Source: Shimia gijangensis
GTDB lineage: Bacteria > Pseudomonadota > Alphaproteobacteria > Rhodobacterales > Rhodobacteraceae
Direction of reading: 5' to 3'
NCBI RefSeq assembly: GCF_900142085.1
Contig: NZ_FQZQ01000006.1
Location: forward strand, 124,001 to 188,000
DNA length: 64,000 nucleotides
Shown here: piece by piece, positions 10,686 through 61,149 of the stretch
Numbering within the stretch: the first letter of the stretch is position 1
Layout: each line of letters opens with the position of its first letter
Made by a program: the position numbers and the translations under genes
Notes under the pieces: generated by a model
Told to the model about the DNA's origin: nothing
Seen by the model: only the letters and a program-made list of their open reading frames with translations
The model's database searches: none

Positions 10686-11295
10686 GCGTGGCTACCATCA
10701 TGGCAATTTGCGGCAAGCTTTGGTCGAAGCAGCGTTTACGCTGATCGAAGCCAAAGGCCCGACAGGCTTTACCTTGTCCGAAGCCGCCAAACAGGCCGGC
10801 GTCACCCCGGCCGCCGTGTACCGTCACTTTGAAGGCCGCGAAGACCTGATCGCCGAAGCTGCCCGCCAAGGCTATGAGATTTTTGCGGACCTGATGCAAT
10901 ACGCCTATGACAAAGGCCAACCTTCTGCTTTGGCTTCATTTGAGGCCACAGGCCGTGCTTATCTGGCGTTTGCGCGTCAGTATCCAGGGCACTACATCGC
11001 AATGTTTGAAAGCGGCATTTCGGTGAACCGCACCTCGGAACTGGCCGAAGTTGCCGCCCGGGCGCGTGGCGTCATGGAAAAAGCGGCCATGGATCTTAGC
11101 CAGCATATCCCATCTGACAAACGCCCGCCTGCCAGCATGTTTTCGGCCCATATCTGGGCCATGAGCCATGGTGTTGTTGAGCTGTTTGCGCGGAACTCTC
11201 CGGGAACCCAAAGCCCGTTCTCACCCGAGGACCTTCTGGAAAGCGGGATCGGGGTTTATTTGCGCGGGTTGGGATTGATAAAACCCGACGGTTAA
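10678..11295 (+). CDS. TetR/AcrR family transcriptional regulator
   Basis: A 205-residue regulator. The N-terminal ~50 residues form the TetR helix-turn-helix, with [20 protein letters not shown] as the recognition segment. The rest is the helical ligand-binding and dimer domain, resembling TetR_C_33/WHG types (residues [11 protein letters not shown] and [15 protein letters not shown] near the end). The start lies within the ppk2 end. The last ~40 codons recur in decayed form at 12186-12308, beyond the FkbM gene. Confidence 0.88.
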
Positions 11296-18809: not shown

Positions 18810-19648
18810 TGTTTCGAACAAGATTTGCCCCATCCCCAACCGGACCGCTGCATCTGGGCCACGCTTACTCTGCTCTTCTCGCGCATGATACGGCCCGTCA
18901 AAAAAACGGCGAATTCCTTCTGCGTATTGATGATCTCGACCAGTCCCGCGCGCGTGTGCATTGGGAGCAGCAAATCTATGACGACTTAAGATGGCTCGGT
19001 ATTTCCTGGGATAGCCCGGTTCGACGCCAATCTGAGCACTTTGAAGACTATGCAGCCGCCTTGAATCAGTTGCGCGAAAAAAACCTCACATTTGAGTGCC
19101 AATGCTCCCGACGTGACATCGAAACTGCTGCAAATGCCCCGCAAGAAGGCGTACCGGACTTTGGACCAGACGGCCGAATATATCCCGGAACCTGCCGCAC
19201 ACTTGCACTCTCGTCAAACAAGACCACTTGCACCCGCCTCAACATGAAAGCTGCCTGCTCAACCGGTCTTCCCGCTTCATTTATCGAAACCGGCCTGGAT
19301 CAAACAAGTTCTCAAGAGGTAAACATTGATGACTTGATTGCGACTGTAGGCGATGTCGTTCTGGCACGCCGCGAAATGACCGCTTCGTATCATCTGTCTG
19401 TTGTGATTGACGATGCGGCCTGCGGTGTCAGTCATGTCATCCGCGGTCATGACCTGTTCGACGCCACCCGTATTCACGTCTTGCTGCAATCTCTGCTTGG
19501 ACTTTCCACGCCCGAATATCACCACCACAGGTTAATCCGGGACGAAGATGGCAAGCGCCTTGCCAAACGTGATGACGCCCGTGCCATCGCCAAATACCGC
19601 GCGGAAGGAGCCACACCACAGGACATCCGCGCCATGGTGGGTCTCTAA
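18809..19648 (+). CDS. gluQ: glutamyl-Q tRNA(Asp) synthetase
   Basis: A truncated GluRS paralogue that attaches glutamate to queuosine in the anticodon of tRNA(Asp). The 279 residues lack the anticodon-binding domain, as expected. The HIGH-type motif is HLGHAYS near residue 16, the KMSKS-type motif is KRLAKRD near residue 250, and the zinc site is made of CQC in FECQCSRRD and Y/C in YPGTCR. FAPSPTGPLHLGH marks the class I synthetase fold. Confidence 0.94.
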   Translation: MFRTRFAPSPTGPLHLGHAYSALLAHDTARQKNGEFLLRIDDLDQSRARVHWEQQIYDDLRWLGISWDSPVRRQSEHFEDYAAALNQLREKNLTFECQCSRRDIETAANAPQEGVPDFGPDGRIYPGTCRTLALSSNKTTCTRLNMKAACSTGLPASFIETGLDQTSSQEVNIDDLIATVGDVVLARREMTASYHLSVVIDDAACGVSHVIRGHDLFDATRIHVLLQSLLGLSTPEYHHHRLIRDEDGKRLAKRDDARAIAKYRAEGATPQDIRAMVGL

Positions 19649-19697
19649 CTCCACTGTTTCAGAAATACTCGTGCCGCAGACATGACCAGATGGCCAT

Positions 19698-20057
19698 TCA
19701 CCCCGTCGGCGACATCAATTCCGTCTCGTCGCCCGCCCGCACTGCGGTATAAAAACAACTCCGCCGGTTGGTGTGGCAAGCAGGACCGGTCTGGCGCACA
19801 ATCACCAGCAGGCAATCTCGATCACAATCCAGGCGAAAATCCACCAGCTCCTGAACATGCCCCGAACTTTCGCCCTTCACCCAAAAGGATTGGCGCGACC
19901 GCGACCAATAGGTCACGCGTCCGCTATCCAATGTGCGCCGAACAGCTTCTGAGTTCATCCAGGCCATCATCAGAATTTCGCTGGTATCGGCGTCCTGCGC
20001 AATTGCGGGCACCAGACCTGCATCGTTGTATTTCAAAGTCTCGGGATCAAATGTCAT
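19698..20057 (-). CDS. hisI: phosphoribosyl-AMP cyclohydrolase
   Basis: HisI opens the adenine ring of phosphoribosyl-AMP in histidine synthesis. From the ATG at 20057 (AAAGGG seven bases upstream) it is 119 residues. The metal site is DCDRDCLLV with Cys in GPACHTNRRSCFY, and WMNSEA and YWSRSRQSFWVKGESSGH are classic HisI motifs. No other his gene is near. Confidence 0.97.
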   Translation of the reverse strand: MTFDPETLKYNDAGLVPAIAQDADTSEILMMAWMNSEAVRRTLDSGRVTYWSRSRQSFWVKGESSGHVQELVDFRLDCDRDCLLVIVRQTGPACHTNRRSCFYTAVRAGDETELMSPTG

Positions 20058-20122
20058 GTCCAAACCCTTTGCATCCTGCTTTGCCTCCTCTATCTAGGAA
20101 TTACGAAACAAAGGGAACAGCC

Positions 20123-20575
20123 ATGTCCGGCGAAAACGACCTGATCAAACTCTATTCCGGGCGCATTCTGGCGCTTGCTGCTGCCATTCCACACACCGAC
20201 AGGTTGGCTACCCCACAAGCCACGGTAAAAAAACGCGCACCACTTTGCGGTTCGACCGTGACCGTGGACATCATGCTAGAGAACGGACATATCGCAGATT
20301 TCGCTCAGGACGTTAGAGCCTGTGCATTGGGTCAGGCTTCGGCATCCGTTGTGGGTGCAAACGTAATCGGTCGCTCCCAAGGCGAAATTGAATCCGCCCG
20401 CGATGCGCTGAAAGATATGCTGAAATCCGACGGCCCAACACCCCCATCCCCTTTTGAAGAACTCGAGGTTCTGAGACCGGCGCGGGAATACAAAAACCGC
20501 CATGCATCCATTCTTCTTGCATTGGAAGCAACGCTTGAAGCCATGGATCAGGCCGCGCAGGCGAACTGCGCCTGA
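20123..20575 (+). CDS. iron-sulfur cluster assembly scaffold protein, NifU/IscU-like
   Basis: A 150-residue protein related to the IscU/SufU/NifU N-terminal scaffold. Potential ligand Cys lie in APLCGSTV (~residue 36) and DVRACALGQASASV (~residue 63), corresponding to conserved scaffold positions; a third Cys occurs only in the last residues, so cluster binding is not certain. The ATG at 20123 has AAAGGGA upstream; longer frames upstream run antisense through hisI and are not real. Confidence 0.82.
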   Translation: MSGENDLIKLYSGRILALAAAIPHTDRLATPQATVKKRAPLCGSTVTVDIMLENGHIADFAQDVRACALGQASASVVGANVIGRSQGEIESARDALKDMLKSDGPTPPSPFEELEVLRPAREYKNRHASILLALEATLEAMDQAAQANCA

Positions 20576-20591
20576 CACCGTCCACATTGCC

Positions 20592-20627
20592 AAAAAAACC
20601 GCCGCACTTCCAAAAGGAAGGCGGCGG
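20592..20627 (-). terminator. strong intrinsic terminator closing the minus-strand unit of the 40-codon gene
   Basis: Read on the minus strand, a 12-bp stem with one bulge and a 4-base loop is followed by seven T. It lies about 150 bases downstream of the 40-codon gene, so that transcript would carry a long 3' untranslated segment (20628-20780) in which I see no credible gene. On the plus strand it may also slow transcription leaving the NifU-like gene, but there is no T-run on that side. Confidence 0.85.
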
Positions 20628-20780
20628 AGGTTTGGTGCGTTCTCGTGGGGACCCGGGACAATTCCGATGGGATCGAGGCAGAACCCTATTCGGGACGAAA
20701 GACAGGCAGTGTCAGTCACGATGCATCAAAGTGGGGACAGGATGCGTGGAACTGACCGGCACGAGTGCGCAGGCAGAAAC

Positions 20781-20903
20781 TTAGGCTATTCCGGGCACAT
20801 GCAGGGCAACAAGCATCATCACGATCAGGGCAACAGCGCCAAAAGAATCCTGAATCAACGTGCTGCGTGAATTACGGATCACGTTTTTGATTTGGGTCAT
20901 CAT
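20781..20903 (-). CDS. 40-residue single-span membrane protein, probable SOS-regulated gene
   Basis: Starts ATGATGACC with AGGAG nine bases upstream. The first ~18 residues are polar and basic (TQIKNVIRNSRS), followed by a hydrophobic span of about 20 residues (FGAVALIVMMLVALHVPG). An N-in membrane topology with a short periplasmic end is likely. A perfect alphaproteobacterial SOS box lies 69 bases upstream (20972-20986), and a strong terminator follows. It stands downstream of recG on the same strand. I recognise similar short proteins in Rhodobacteraceae but know no function; the design recalls SidA of Caulobacter. Confidence 0.7.
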   Translation of the reverse strand: MMTQIKNVIRNSRSTLIQDSFGAVALIVMMLVALHVPGIA

Positions 20904-20971
20904 GGCGGCGGCTCCTGCTCGAACATTACTTTTGTTGCCTCTTTGTTCTCACACCCTCAACTGCGTGTAAA

Positions 20972-20986
20972 GAACTTTCTGAGAAC
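20972..20986 (-). promoter_or_regulatory. LexA (SOS) box GTTC-N7-GTTC, with extra GTTC repeats
   Basis: On the minus strand the sequence is GTTC, seven bases, GTTC, the established LexA operator pattern of Rhizobiales, Rhodobacter and Caulobacter. Two more GTTC units lie upstream at 10-base steps (plus-strand GAAC at 20993 and 21003), so four GTTC copies sit on nearly the same helix face. TTTACA immediately follows on the minus strand and could be the -35 element, which would place LexA over the promoter. Confidence 0.6.
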
Positions 20987-21014
20987 ATTTGCGAACAAAT
21001 CGGAACCCTTACGG

Positions 21015-25558
<4,544 letters not shown>

Positions 25559-47378: not shown

Positions 47379-49466
47379 ATGAGTAAACTAGGTGACTATG
47401 ACGGCCCGATCCTTGAGATCGATAAACTGTCGATATCCTTTTTCACCCGACTGCGTGAGATTCCCGCCGTGATGGACTTTTCGGTTCGGGTAAAACCGGG
47501 CGAAGCCGTCGGTCTGGTCGGTGAATCCGGATGTGGTAAATCCACCGTGGCACTTGGGGTCATGCAGGACCTTGGCAAGAACGGTCGCGTTGTAGGCGGT
47601 TCGATCAAGTTCAAGGGGCGTGATCTGGCCGAGTTGAGTCCAGAAGAGTTGCGCGACGTGCGCGGCAATGAAATTGCGATGATCTATCAAGAACCTATGG
47701 CCTCTCTGAACCCGGCCATGAGGATCGGCAAACAGCTGATGGAAGTGCCGATGATTCACGAAGGTGTTGGCAAAGAGGAGGCTTACAAACGCGCGCTGGA
47801 AGTGGTGACAGATGTGCGCCTGCCAGACCCTGAGCGTATGCTGAACTCTTTCCCGCACCAACTGTCAGGTGGTCAGCAACAGCGCATCGTAATTGCGATG
47901 GCCCTGATGTCAAAACCGGCCCTGTTGATCCTGGACGAGCCGACCACGGCGTTGGATGTGACAGTTGAAGCCGCGGTTGTCGAACTGGTCAAGGATCTGG
48001 GCAAAAAGTATGGCACATCGATGCTGTTCATCTCGCACAACCTTGGTCTGGTATTGGAAACCTGTGACCGGATTTGTGTGATGTATTCGGGTGAAGCGGT
48101 TGAGCGTGGCTCAATCGAAGATGTCTTTGACAACATGCACCATCCCTATACCCAAGCGCTGTTTCGCTCGATCCCACTTCCGGGGGCGGACAAAAATGCA
48201 CGCCCACTGGTGGCCATTCCGGGCAATTTCCCGTTGCCGCACGAACGCCCCAATGGCTGTAACTTTGGTCCGCGCTGTGACTATTTTGAAGAAGGTCGAT
48301 GTGACAAAGGCGAAATTCCGATGGTCAATGTCGAGGGCTTTGAACGCCATTCGTCGCGCTGTCTTAAGTTCGAGGAAATTGACTGGAATGCGCCAATTGC
48401 CAAAGCGGAAGTCAAGGAAAAGGGCGAAATTGGCGAAGTTGTTCTGAAAATGGACAACCTCAAGAAATACTATGAGGTCGCTGCAAATGCTCTGTTTGGC
48501 GGCGGTGATACCAAAGTGGTTAAAGCCAATGAAACCCTGAGCTTTGAAGCACATGAATCCGAAACACTCGCGATTGTGGGCGAGTCCGGCTGTGGCAAGT
48601 CCACCTTCGCCAAAGTGCTGATGGGATTGGAAACCGCCACCGAAGGGGAAATTCTGCTGGATGGCAAAAACATCGAACAGACTCCGATCCAGTCTCGCAA
48701 CACCAAAACGGTGGCTGATGTTCAGATGGTGTTCCAAAACCCGTTTGACACGCTGAACCCTTCGATGACGGTAGGGCGCCAGATAATGCGCGCGTTGGAA
48801 ATCTTTAAGATCGGCGATAGCGAAGCTGATCGTCGCAAACGCATGCTAGAGCTGTTGGATCTGGTCAAACTGCCACGGGAGTTTGGTGATCGTATGCCGC
48901 GCCAGCTTTCCGGTGGTCAGAAACAGCGCGTGGGTATTGCGCGCGCCTTTGCGGGTGGTGCACGCATTGTTGTGGCGGATGAACCTGTATCTGCGTTGGA
49001 TGTGTCCGTGCAGGCCGCCGTGACCGACCTCTTGATGGAAATCCAGCGCGAAGAGAAAACCACATTGTTGTTTATCTCTCATGACCTGTCCATCGTGCGC
49101 TATCTGTCGGATCGTGTCATGGTCATGTACCTTGGTCACGTCGTTGAGCTTGGCACCACAGATCAGGTGTTCTCACCGCCCTACCATCCATATACCGAGG
49201 CGTTGCTTTCGGCGGTTCCGATTGCTGACACTTCGGTTGAGAAACAGCACATCGTGCTAGAGGGCGACATTCCGTCGGCGATGAGCCCGCCCCCTGGCTG
49301 TCCGTTCCAAACGCGTTGTCGCTGGAAATCAGAAGTCCCCGGCGGTCTTTGCGATCAGGAGGTTCCTCCGGTACGCGATTTGGCAGATGGCCATCAGGTA
49401 AAATGTCATCTCAGCGATGACATCTTTTCCCGGATGGAACCGGTCATTAAGATCGCAGCTGAATAA
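47379..49466 (+). CDS. fused double ATPase of a peptide-type ABC transporter (DppD-DppF fusion)
   Basis: A 695-residue protein with two complete ABC domains. The first has Walker A GESGCGKSTVA near residue 55, signature LSGGQQQRI, and Walker B LLILDEPTTALD. The second has Walker A GESGCGKSTFA near residue 410, signature LSGGQKQRVGIARA, and Walker B VVADEPVSALD. Each is followed by an oligopeptide-transporter C-terminal region with Cys that often bind a metal cluster (CNFGPRCDYF...CDKG; CPFQTRCRWK...CDQE). It joins the two permeases to make a complete importer minus the binding protein. Confidence 0.94.
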   Translation: MSKLGDYDGPILEIDKLSISFFTRLREIPAVMDFSVRVKPGEAVGLVGESGCGKSTVALGVMQDLGKNGRVVGGSIKFKGRDLAELSPEELRDVRGNEIAMIYQEPMASLNPAMRIGKQLMEVPMIHEGVGKEEAYKRALEVVTDVRLPDPERMLNSFPHQLSGGQQQRIVIAMALMSKPALLILDEPTTALDVTVEAAVVELVKDLGKKYGTSMLFISHNLGLVLETCDRICVMYSGEAVERGSIEDVFDNMHHPYTQALFRSIPLPGADKNARPLVAIPGNFPLPHERPNGCNFGPRCDYFEEGRCDKGEIPMVNVEGFERHSSRCLKFEEIDWNAPIAKAEVKEKGEIGEVVLKMDNLKKYYEVAANALFGGGDTKVVKANETLSFEAHESETLAIVGESGCGKSTFAKVLMGLETATEGEILLDGKNIEQTPIQSRNTKTVADVQMVFQNPFDTLNPSMTVGRQIMRALEIFKIGDSEADRRKRMLELLDLVKLPREFGDRMPRQLSGGQKQRVGIARAFAGGARIVVADEPVSALDVSVQAAVTDLLMEIQREEKTTLLFISHDLSIVRYLSDRVMVMYLGHVVELGTTDQVFSPPYHPYTEALLSAVPIADTSVEKQHIVLEGDIPSAMSPPPGCPFQTRCRWKSEVPGGLCDQEVPPVRDLADGHQVKCHLSDDIFSRMEPVIKIAAE

Positions 49467-61000: not shown

Positions 61001-61149
61001 CCCCAATTCCGACCTGGTTCGGGTACAGTTCACCATTTGTGATGTCAAAGACCACAAAATGATGTGCTGGAAATCGCAAACACGCTTGCAAAAAACTTGT
61101 CATTGCCGTTTGTGGAGAACAATTAACACGTAAACGAACGGCCATCCTA

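Follow-up and report, generated by a model that had tools for sequence, protein, structure and literature searches.

A candidate LexA-controlled transcript of the Rhodobacteraceae that joins a membrane microprotein to a structured 3' RNA

The stretch of DNA analysed here (64,000 nucleotides of Shimia gijangensis, referred to below as the window) carries a very short gene on its minus strand, next to the repair gene recG. In reading direction the locus consists of a LexA-type operator, an open reading frame (ORF) of 40 codons, a structured RNA in the 3' untranslated region (UTR) and a terminator hairpin. The ORF is located at 20781-20903 (minus strand) with the translation MMTQIKNVIRNSRSTLIQDSFGAVALIVMMLVALHVPGIA, and the Shine-Dalgarno-like motif AGGAG can be read from the sequence at 20912-20916 (minus strand). 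A 40-codon gene with a ribosome binding site had been claimed in an earlier note on the window, and both are present. Homologous loci were compared for 90 genomes; of the 199 genomes with a match to the single protein sequence, the 91 with the highest scores were taken, minus G021. In 84 of these 90 loci a loosely defined Shine-Dalgarno-like string is found at most 18 nt from the start.

The distribution of the microprotein was followed in three genome samples. With the single sequence as query, matches were obtained in 199 of 295 genomes of the family (294 genera), and with a profile of 32 sequences in 258 of the 295. A single profile match was found in 254 of the 258 matching genomes, and two in the other four (G007, G072, G215 and G287). 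In the sample of the order, the microprotein is present in 188 of 196 genomes, every one assigned to the same family. The family profile gave no credible match beyond the family in a 385-genome sample of the class, where five family members matched. Three marginal matches outside the family (E 0.005-0.008), which sit in frames of 290-547 codons, were rejected as chance. The microprotein has no match in Pfam (E up to 0.1) and none in NCBIfam or PHROGs (E up to 1). For the ORF a pN/pS of 0.16 was determined from 24 close pairs differing by 3-20%, a set selected with a motif in which some residues are fixed; on whole ORFs without the motif filter the value is 0.157 (24 pairs, 32 loci). This low pN/pS indicates selection at the protein level. 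On the comparative evidence, the 40-codon ORF is a real, selected gene.

The encoded protein is predicted to span the membrane once, in agreement with the claim of the earlier note. It contains one hydrophobic segment (best 17-residue Kyte-Doolittle mean of 2.42 in the window protein), and AlphaFold2 places helices at residues 2-11 and 13-39 with a mean pLDDT of 85.9. No variation at residues D19, G22, L34 and P37 is seen in either alignment (32 and 33 sequences). In the 32-sequence set the N-terminal half has a mean net charge of +0.69, and a charged residue past position 20 occurs in only 2 of the 32 sequences. By positive-inside reasoning the N terminus would thus lie in the cytoplasm. The protein ends about three residues beyond the conserved proline that closes the membrane helix, and the conservation of this helix, which is rich in small residues, suggests a specific partner.

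The upstream neighbour recG (21015-23105, minus strand) was identified by its Pfam RecG domains, which bears out the repair gene named in the earlier note. In 88 of the 90 loci recG is found upstream on the same strand, with a gap of 78-623 nt (median about 114). In some Alphaproteobacteria recG itself appears to be LexA-regulated, according to the accessible part of a study with R. sphaeroides and P. denitrificans among its species (PMC3323433). The box described below lies after recG and therefore should not act on recG in such an arrangement. Downstream, a convergent NifU-like gene is present in 67 of the 90 loci. In the window this is an ORF of 297 amino acids at 19682-20575 (plus strand), of which the C-terminal part is NifU/SufU-like, below curated cut-offs. 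Its first ~155 residues gave no match in Pfam or NCBIfam, and the true start may be located further in.

Upstream of the microprotein gene lies LexA box 1 (GTTCTCAGAAAGTTC, 20972-20986, minus strand), whose nearest base lies 69 nt upstream of the start-codon A. The perfect GTTC-N7-GTTC that had been claimed at this distance is therefore present, and it is found in 89 of the 90 loci, with its first base 59-115 nt before the start codon. A search for homologues and their boxes in relatives, as proposed in the earlier note, thus came out in favour of conservation. The sole exception, L061, reads GTTG-N7-GTTC and is one base off; this locus keeps the ORF, and its 3' RNA gives no model match. The per-base counts along the operator were taken over 86 of the 90 loci. 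Box 1 is followed directly by TTTACA (20966-20971, minus strand), a probable -35 hexamer of which each base is conserved in 63-86 of 86 loci; the promoter is deduced from this pattern, and a simple scan gave no sigma-70 promoter at the site. The probable -10 region is covered by a second operator element, GAAC-N7-CAAC (20934-20948, minus strand), an inverted degenerate LexA box. It occurs as GAGAAC-N7-[CGT]AAC in 84 of the 90 loci, and its interval to box 1 is constant in 82 of 86.

The earlier note had also described two further GTTC units at 10-base steps. Both exist in the window, and only the nearer one is part of the conserved operator: the third unit (20993-20996, minus strand), 10 nt upstream of box 1, is kept in 83-86 of 86 loci per base, whereas the fourth (21003-21006, minus strand) is not conserved and appears at a spacing of 20 or 21 nt in only 28 of 89 loci. 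Over the 86 loci the consensus reads GTTC-N6-GTTC-N7-GTTC-TTTACA, then TGAGAAC-N7-CAAC, that is, five half-sites with fixed spacing.

The box by itself was rejected as evidence, since its frequency in the genome equals that of the control (125 copies of GTTC-N7-GTTC vs 129 of the reversed pattern). The window contains six copies compared to 2.2 expected, a number reached by one of 100 shuffles. The five others are located at 196-210, 11193-11207 and 19853-19867 on the minus strand and at 48720-48734 and 61017-61031 on the plus strand; given the genome-wide control they are probably there by chance. A reverse test was carried out with the pattern AAAGTTCTTTAC-N12-22-TGAGAACAAA, which holds no protein information and was scanned over the contigs of 84,980 species. 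At least 119 sites were obtained. Among the sites listed, a homologue of the microprotein follows within 320 nt downstream in all 118 that were testable, each with E up to 0.001; one listed site, L175, was untestable as its stored DNA ends 32 nt past the match. The hosts among the listed sites include Ruegeria, Sulfitobacter, Roseovarius, Celeribacter, Thioclava, Rhodovulum and Paracoccus. The operator is thus precise enough to single out the microprotein gene across species.

The window genome encodes both LexA and RecA. Its lexA carries a double operator with GTTCCCGTCTTGTTC at -82 (GTTC-N7-GTTC) and GAACATGGATAGAAC at -44 (GAAC-N7-GAAC), and for recA a single element, GAACAAGACGGGAAC (GAAC-N7-GAAC), was found about 110 nt upstream of where its profile match begins. 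As far as can be read from these sequences, the microprotein gene has the same two-element operator layout as lexA. GTTC-N7-GTTC is the alphaproteobacterial LexA consensus in the parts available of PMC12700426 and of PMC3323433, the latter of which gives the motif together with the core genes. By comparison, the marks of a LexA regulon member are found at the locus: an operator upstream, conservation of this operator with the orthologue, and LexA and RecA with matching operators. The transcription unit is therefore very probably controlled by LexA.

Behind the ORF a structured 3' UTR RNA was recognized at 20630-20780 (minus strand), with a closing helix P1 and the hairpins P2-P4. It is supported by covariation, by a match of 96.6 bits to covariance model R2 and by a fold z-score of -4.38. 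The 5' segment UUUCUGCCUGCG (20768-20779, minus strand) contains the first CUGCCU motif; its columns are invariant or at least 90% conserved, and its last four bases form the 5' strand of P1. According to the alignment the loops on the minus strand are CUGUCCC in P2 (20734-20740), CUGCCUGUC in P3 (20701-20709) and CUGCCUC in P4 (20675-20681). Across relatives the letters of the stems vary, whereas the loops stay constant. Sequence and fold show a GC-rich terminator hairpin with a U tract at 20592-20627 (minus strand), and similar hairpins lie 3' of the RNA in many relatives. The strong terminator claimed earlier exists as a strong hairpin with a bulge and a run of seven T behind it, but its stem starts only about 150 nt past the stop codon. 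The hairpin is absent from the output of a simple terminator scan.

Covariation was tested on alignment A2, a sequence-only alignment of 16 chosen sequences on which the helices were drawn afterwards. An alignment of 49 sequences had given almost no consensus fold, and the closer set of 16 was then chosen, so that this first test depends on selected sequences and on helices fitted to them. In A2, 87.1% of the cells pair, and changes on both sides are seen in 14 of 28 pairs compared to 5.7 in shuffles. None of 500 shuffles was as high in four of five measures; in the fifth (further pair types) 7 of 500 were. In all five measures A2 exceeds the slid controls throughout, by a small margin in two (14 vs 13 pairs, 26 vs 24 types), and the covariation score is 0.232 vs at most 0.102 in the slid controls. 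P3 is the weakest helix, with 73.2% of cells paired. In an alignment fitted to the model, which leans towards the structure, double changes occur in 27 of 28 pairs.

With covariance model R1 the RNA was detected in 71 of the 90 loci (E up to 0.1; 16 of them are the training set), in all 71 directly 3' of the ORF on the same strand. Model R2 with strict filters gave exactly one match each in 142 of the 295 family genomes and none in the other 153. In all 114 genomes with both positions listed, the RNA directly follows the ORF on the same strand, starting -4 to 110 nt (median 9) from the end of the ORF match; the other 28 of the 142 genomes are without a listed ORF position, and all 28 have an ORF profile match. 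In the class sample R2 matched five family members and gave no match in the other 380 of the 385 genomes. Among the 19 loci without a match to the RNA model, 13 keep two or more copies of the motif, and five (L027, L032, L061, L070 and L077) have no copy in 200 nt; the contig of L077 ends at once. For comparison, a control stretch 600 nt downstream contains 0.22 motifs per 200 nt, and the reversed control 1.72. CTGCCT occurs in 109 copies in 60 RNAs vs 5 for its reversed control. For CTGTCC the counts are 76 vs 78, a control that is uninformative as the motif is nearly its own reverse; the high reversed value of 1.72 has the same cause.

The stretch from 19500 to 22000 was also searched with Rfam (E up to 5), which gave no match in the RNA; the sole match in this stretch, to a CRISPR repeat inside recG, was rejected as chance. 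The plus-strand reverse complement of the RNA stretch has a fold z-score of -3.99, and the reverse strand reaches a slightly lower consensus energy in three 16-sequence alignments. The plus strand folds almost equally and therefore folding energy does not settle the strand of the RNA, which was assigned to the minus strand because of operator, ORF, U tract and orientation. The conserved structured RNA is, on comparative grounds, almost certainly real, and it is a candidate for a new, seemingly undescribed RNA family behind a LexA-type operator. This RNA, the second inverted operator element and the nearly constant position behind recG are additions beyond the earlier note.

Operator, ORF and RNA are conserved as one unit. 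The locus combines a selected ORF with a covarying RNA, adjacent in 114 of 114 genomes, as in a dual-function transcript; that both lie on a single transcript we infer. We propose, with a probability of about 50%, that the unit is a LexA-repressed transcript specific to the family, the Rhodobacteraceae in the wide sense, which would carry a SidA-like checkpoint microprotein and a 3' regulatory RNA. LexA would sit on the double operator and cover the probable -35 and -10 regions. Judging from the operator, DNA damage would lead to RecA-triggered cleavage of LexA, and the unit would then be transcribed through to the terminator. The message would be translated into a 40-residue inner-membrane protein with a cytoplasmic amphipathic N-terminal helix and the conserved transmembrane helix. 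By analogy this microprotein could well bind a membrane partner, such as the FtsW/FtsI/FtsN septal complex, and delay division. The closing helix and the three hairpins of the RNA would present the repeated pyrimidine-rich motifs CUGCCU and CUGUCCC, and the RNA would pair in trans with purine-rich sites rather than fold onto its own start site. Such a trans-acting role, in which the RNA would be an sRNA either derived from the 3' UTR or of the dual-function kind, is given slightly less than even odds. The full combination, in which one SOS promoter would drive a membrane checkpoint microprotein and a multi-hairpin regulatory RNA as a family-wide dual-function transcript, is put forward still more tentatively.

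For the RNA part the main alternative is a purely cis-acting element, which would serve mRNA stability or termination without a role in trans. This would fit the attachment of the RNA to the ORF, seen in all 114 genomes with both positions listed and in all 71 loci with a model match, as well as the terminator hairpin found behind the RNA both in the window and among many relatives. The search for targets in trans also speaks for it. The complement of the 11-mer of the main loop (GGGACAGGCAG) occurs at 52 places in 12 genomes, the reversed pattern at 56. Of the 52 places 30 were compared, and these revealed no target gene that recurs widely. The recurrent ortholog pairs were L223/L238 and L227/L241, and one of these pairs is the RNA locus itself. 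Two further short matches were noted among the GGGACAGGCAG places. Against a role only in cis, the stems vary while the unpaired CUGCCU and CUGUCCC motifs are conserved, which suggests a binding partner over mere stability. Because these unpaired motifs are conserved, a trans-acting sRNA was judged most likely, and the cis-only reading is considered unlikely.

For the protein part, the microprotein might act outside the divisome, e.g., on a membrane protease, on respiration or on the control of gene transfer agents. The conserved transmembrane helix, which implies a specific partner, would suit this as well. In addition, LexA affects CckA and CtrA-regulated traits, e.g., gene transfer agents, in R. 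capsulatus, as cited in the accessible text of PMC6473078. However, the flanks show no genomic link to such systems, the neighbours being recG and, in 67 of 90 loci, the convergent NifU-like gene. We regard this alternative, like the cis-only RNA, as unlikely, and keep the checkpoint microprotein as the preferred reading of the protein.

A further explanation would be a toxin similar to TisB or DinQ: upon damage the inner membrane would be depolarised by the peptide, with the RNA controlling, in cis, the synthesis of the peptide or the stability of the mRNA. Type I toxin mRNAs typically have a stable structured UTR. The microprotein is likewise a small hydrophobic peptide under an SOS-type operator, and DinQ is an SOS-regulated toxic peptide with a single transmembrane segment (PMC3567139, accessible part). 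However, a charged residue beyond position 20 is present in only 2 of 32 sequences, and the RNA lies on the strand of the ORF and is therefore no classical antitoxin. Toxins tend to be patchy in their distribution, whereas the microprotein gene is found as one copy in 254 of 258 genomes and beside recG in 88 of 90 loci. A fold-back of the 3' onto the 5' region at the start site was tested in the 60 of the 90 loci for which both regions were delimited. Matched duplexes were no better than mismatched ones (permutation p 0.95), so that matched 5'-3' pairing is unsupported and a Hok-like hiding of the start by the 3' end of the RNA was not found. A toxin is thus rather improbable.

It can also be asked whether the RNA is the main product, an SOS-induced sRNA with the ORF as a minor or leader peptide. 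The covariation, the conserved loops and the presence of the RNA with the ORF wherever both positions are listed (114 of 114) would allow this, but selection acts on the ORF at the level of the protein (pN/pS 0.16). The ORF is also matched in more of the 295 family genomes than the RNA (258 vs 142), a comparison between searches of different sensitivity. This makes an RNA-centred unit quite improbable. A chance box in front of a spurious ORF, for which the equal genome-wide frequency of box and reversed control could be quoted, is refuted by the box in 89 of 90 loci and the gene behind 118 of the 118 testable operator sites listed, and its probability is negligible.

The preferred reading of a LexA-repressed unit with a checkpoint microprotein and a regulatory RNA was compared with the literature. 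No description of the microprotein gene or of the RNA was found in the open-licence literature; subscription papers and preprints were outside the scope. Within the same literature no SOS division inhibitor was found for this large marine and phototrophic family. The available main texts of sRNA surveys of Ruegeria pomeroyi (PMC4809877) and Paracoccus denitrificans (PMC5107571) contain no mention of recG, SOS or LexA, and recG is absent from the available main text of a D. shibae paper with LexA predictions (PMC6473078). Different bacterial groups have different SOS division inhibitors, and for this family the microprotein is a widely conserved candidate. If the model is true, one message would supply both a protein arm and a riboregulatory arm of the response to DNA damage. 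Once DNA is damaged, the unit may then stop growth or division and adjust other genes. The conserved 3' RNA sets it apart from one more SOS microprotein, and the attached structured RNA makes a possible RNA arm of the alphaproteobacterial SOS response directly testable in non-pathogenic laboratory strains.

That small SOS-induced membrane proteins can inhibit division is well established, with SidA (PMC4211646, accessible part) and YneA (PMC13396833, accessible part) as examples. Described for Caulobacter are SidA, with 29 amino acids and FtsW as its partner, and DidA (PMC4211646). Like the microprotein, SidA is a very small inner-membrane protein and is LexA-repressed, with the same Caulobacter consensus GTTC-N7-GTTC (PMC4211646, PMC12700426). 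The SidA-like design proposed in the earlier note therefore stands for the short single-span membrane protein under a LexA-type box, while the likeness of function is an analogy only; a SidA-like function is plausible. No homology between the microprotein and a characterised division inhibitor was detected, the family profile having given no credible match elsewhere in the class sample. In contrast to the 29 residues of SidA the protein described here has 40, its gene adjoins recG, and it is followed by a conserved structured 3' RNA, which is unmentioned for sidA in the accessible texts (PMC4211646, PMC12700426).

YneA, SosA and ChiZ of Gram-positive bacteria are further division inhibitors located in the membrane and induced by the SOS response or by damage. 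The target of YneA in Bacillus is FtsW, to which SosA, ChiZ and SidA are also predicted to bind, in models of low confidence (PMC13396833, accessible part). YneA carries an extracellular LysM domain, whereas the microprotein extends only about three residues beyond its conserved proline. TisB and DinQ resemble the unit as SOS-regulated hydrophobic peptides (PMC3567139, PMC8145889, accessible parts). The microprotein unit differs from them in being without a 5'-3' fold-back and in its core-gene distribution.

With respect to the RNA, the closest parallels are transcripts that combine a small ORF with a regulatory RNA. In the dual-function sRNA SgrS/SgrT one transcript carries an ORF of about 40 amino acids and a conserved structured RNA, like the unit described here; in contrast to SgrS/SgrT the ORF precedes the RNA in this unit, which has a LexA-type operator. 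The CcsR RNAs of Rhodobacter sphaeroides, which belongs to the same bacterial family, likewise consist of a small ORF and then an RNA with repeated C-rich loop motifs. The motif of the CcsR RNAs is CCUCCUCCC, compared to CUGCCU and CUGUCCC in the RNA described here, and their regulation is also different.
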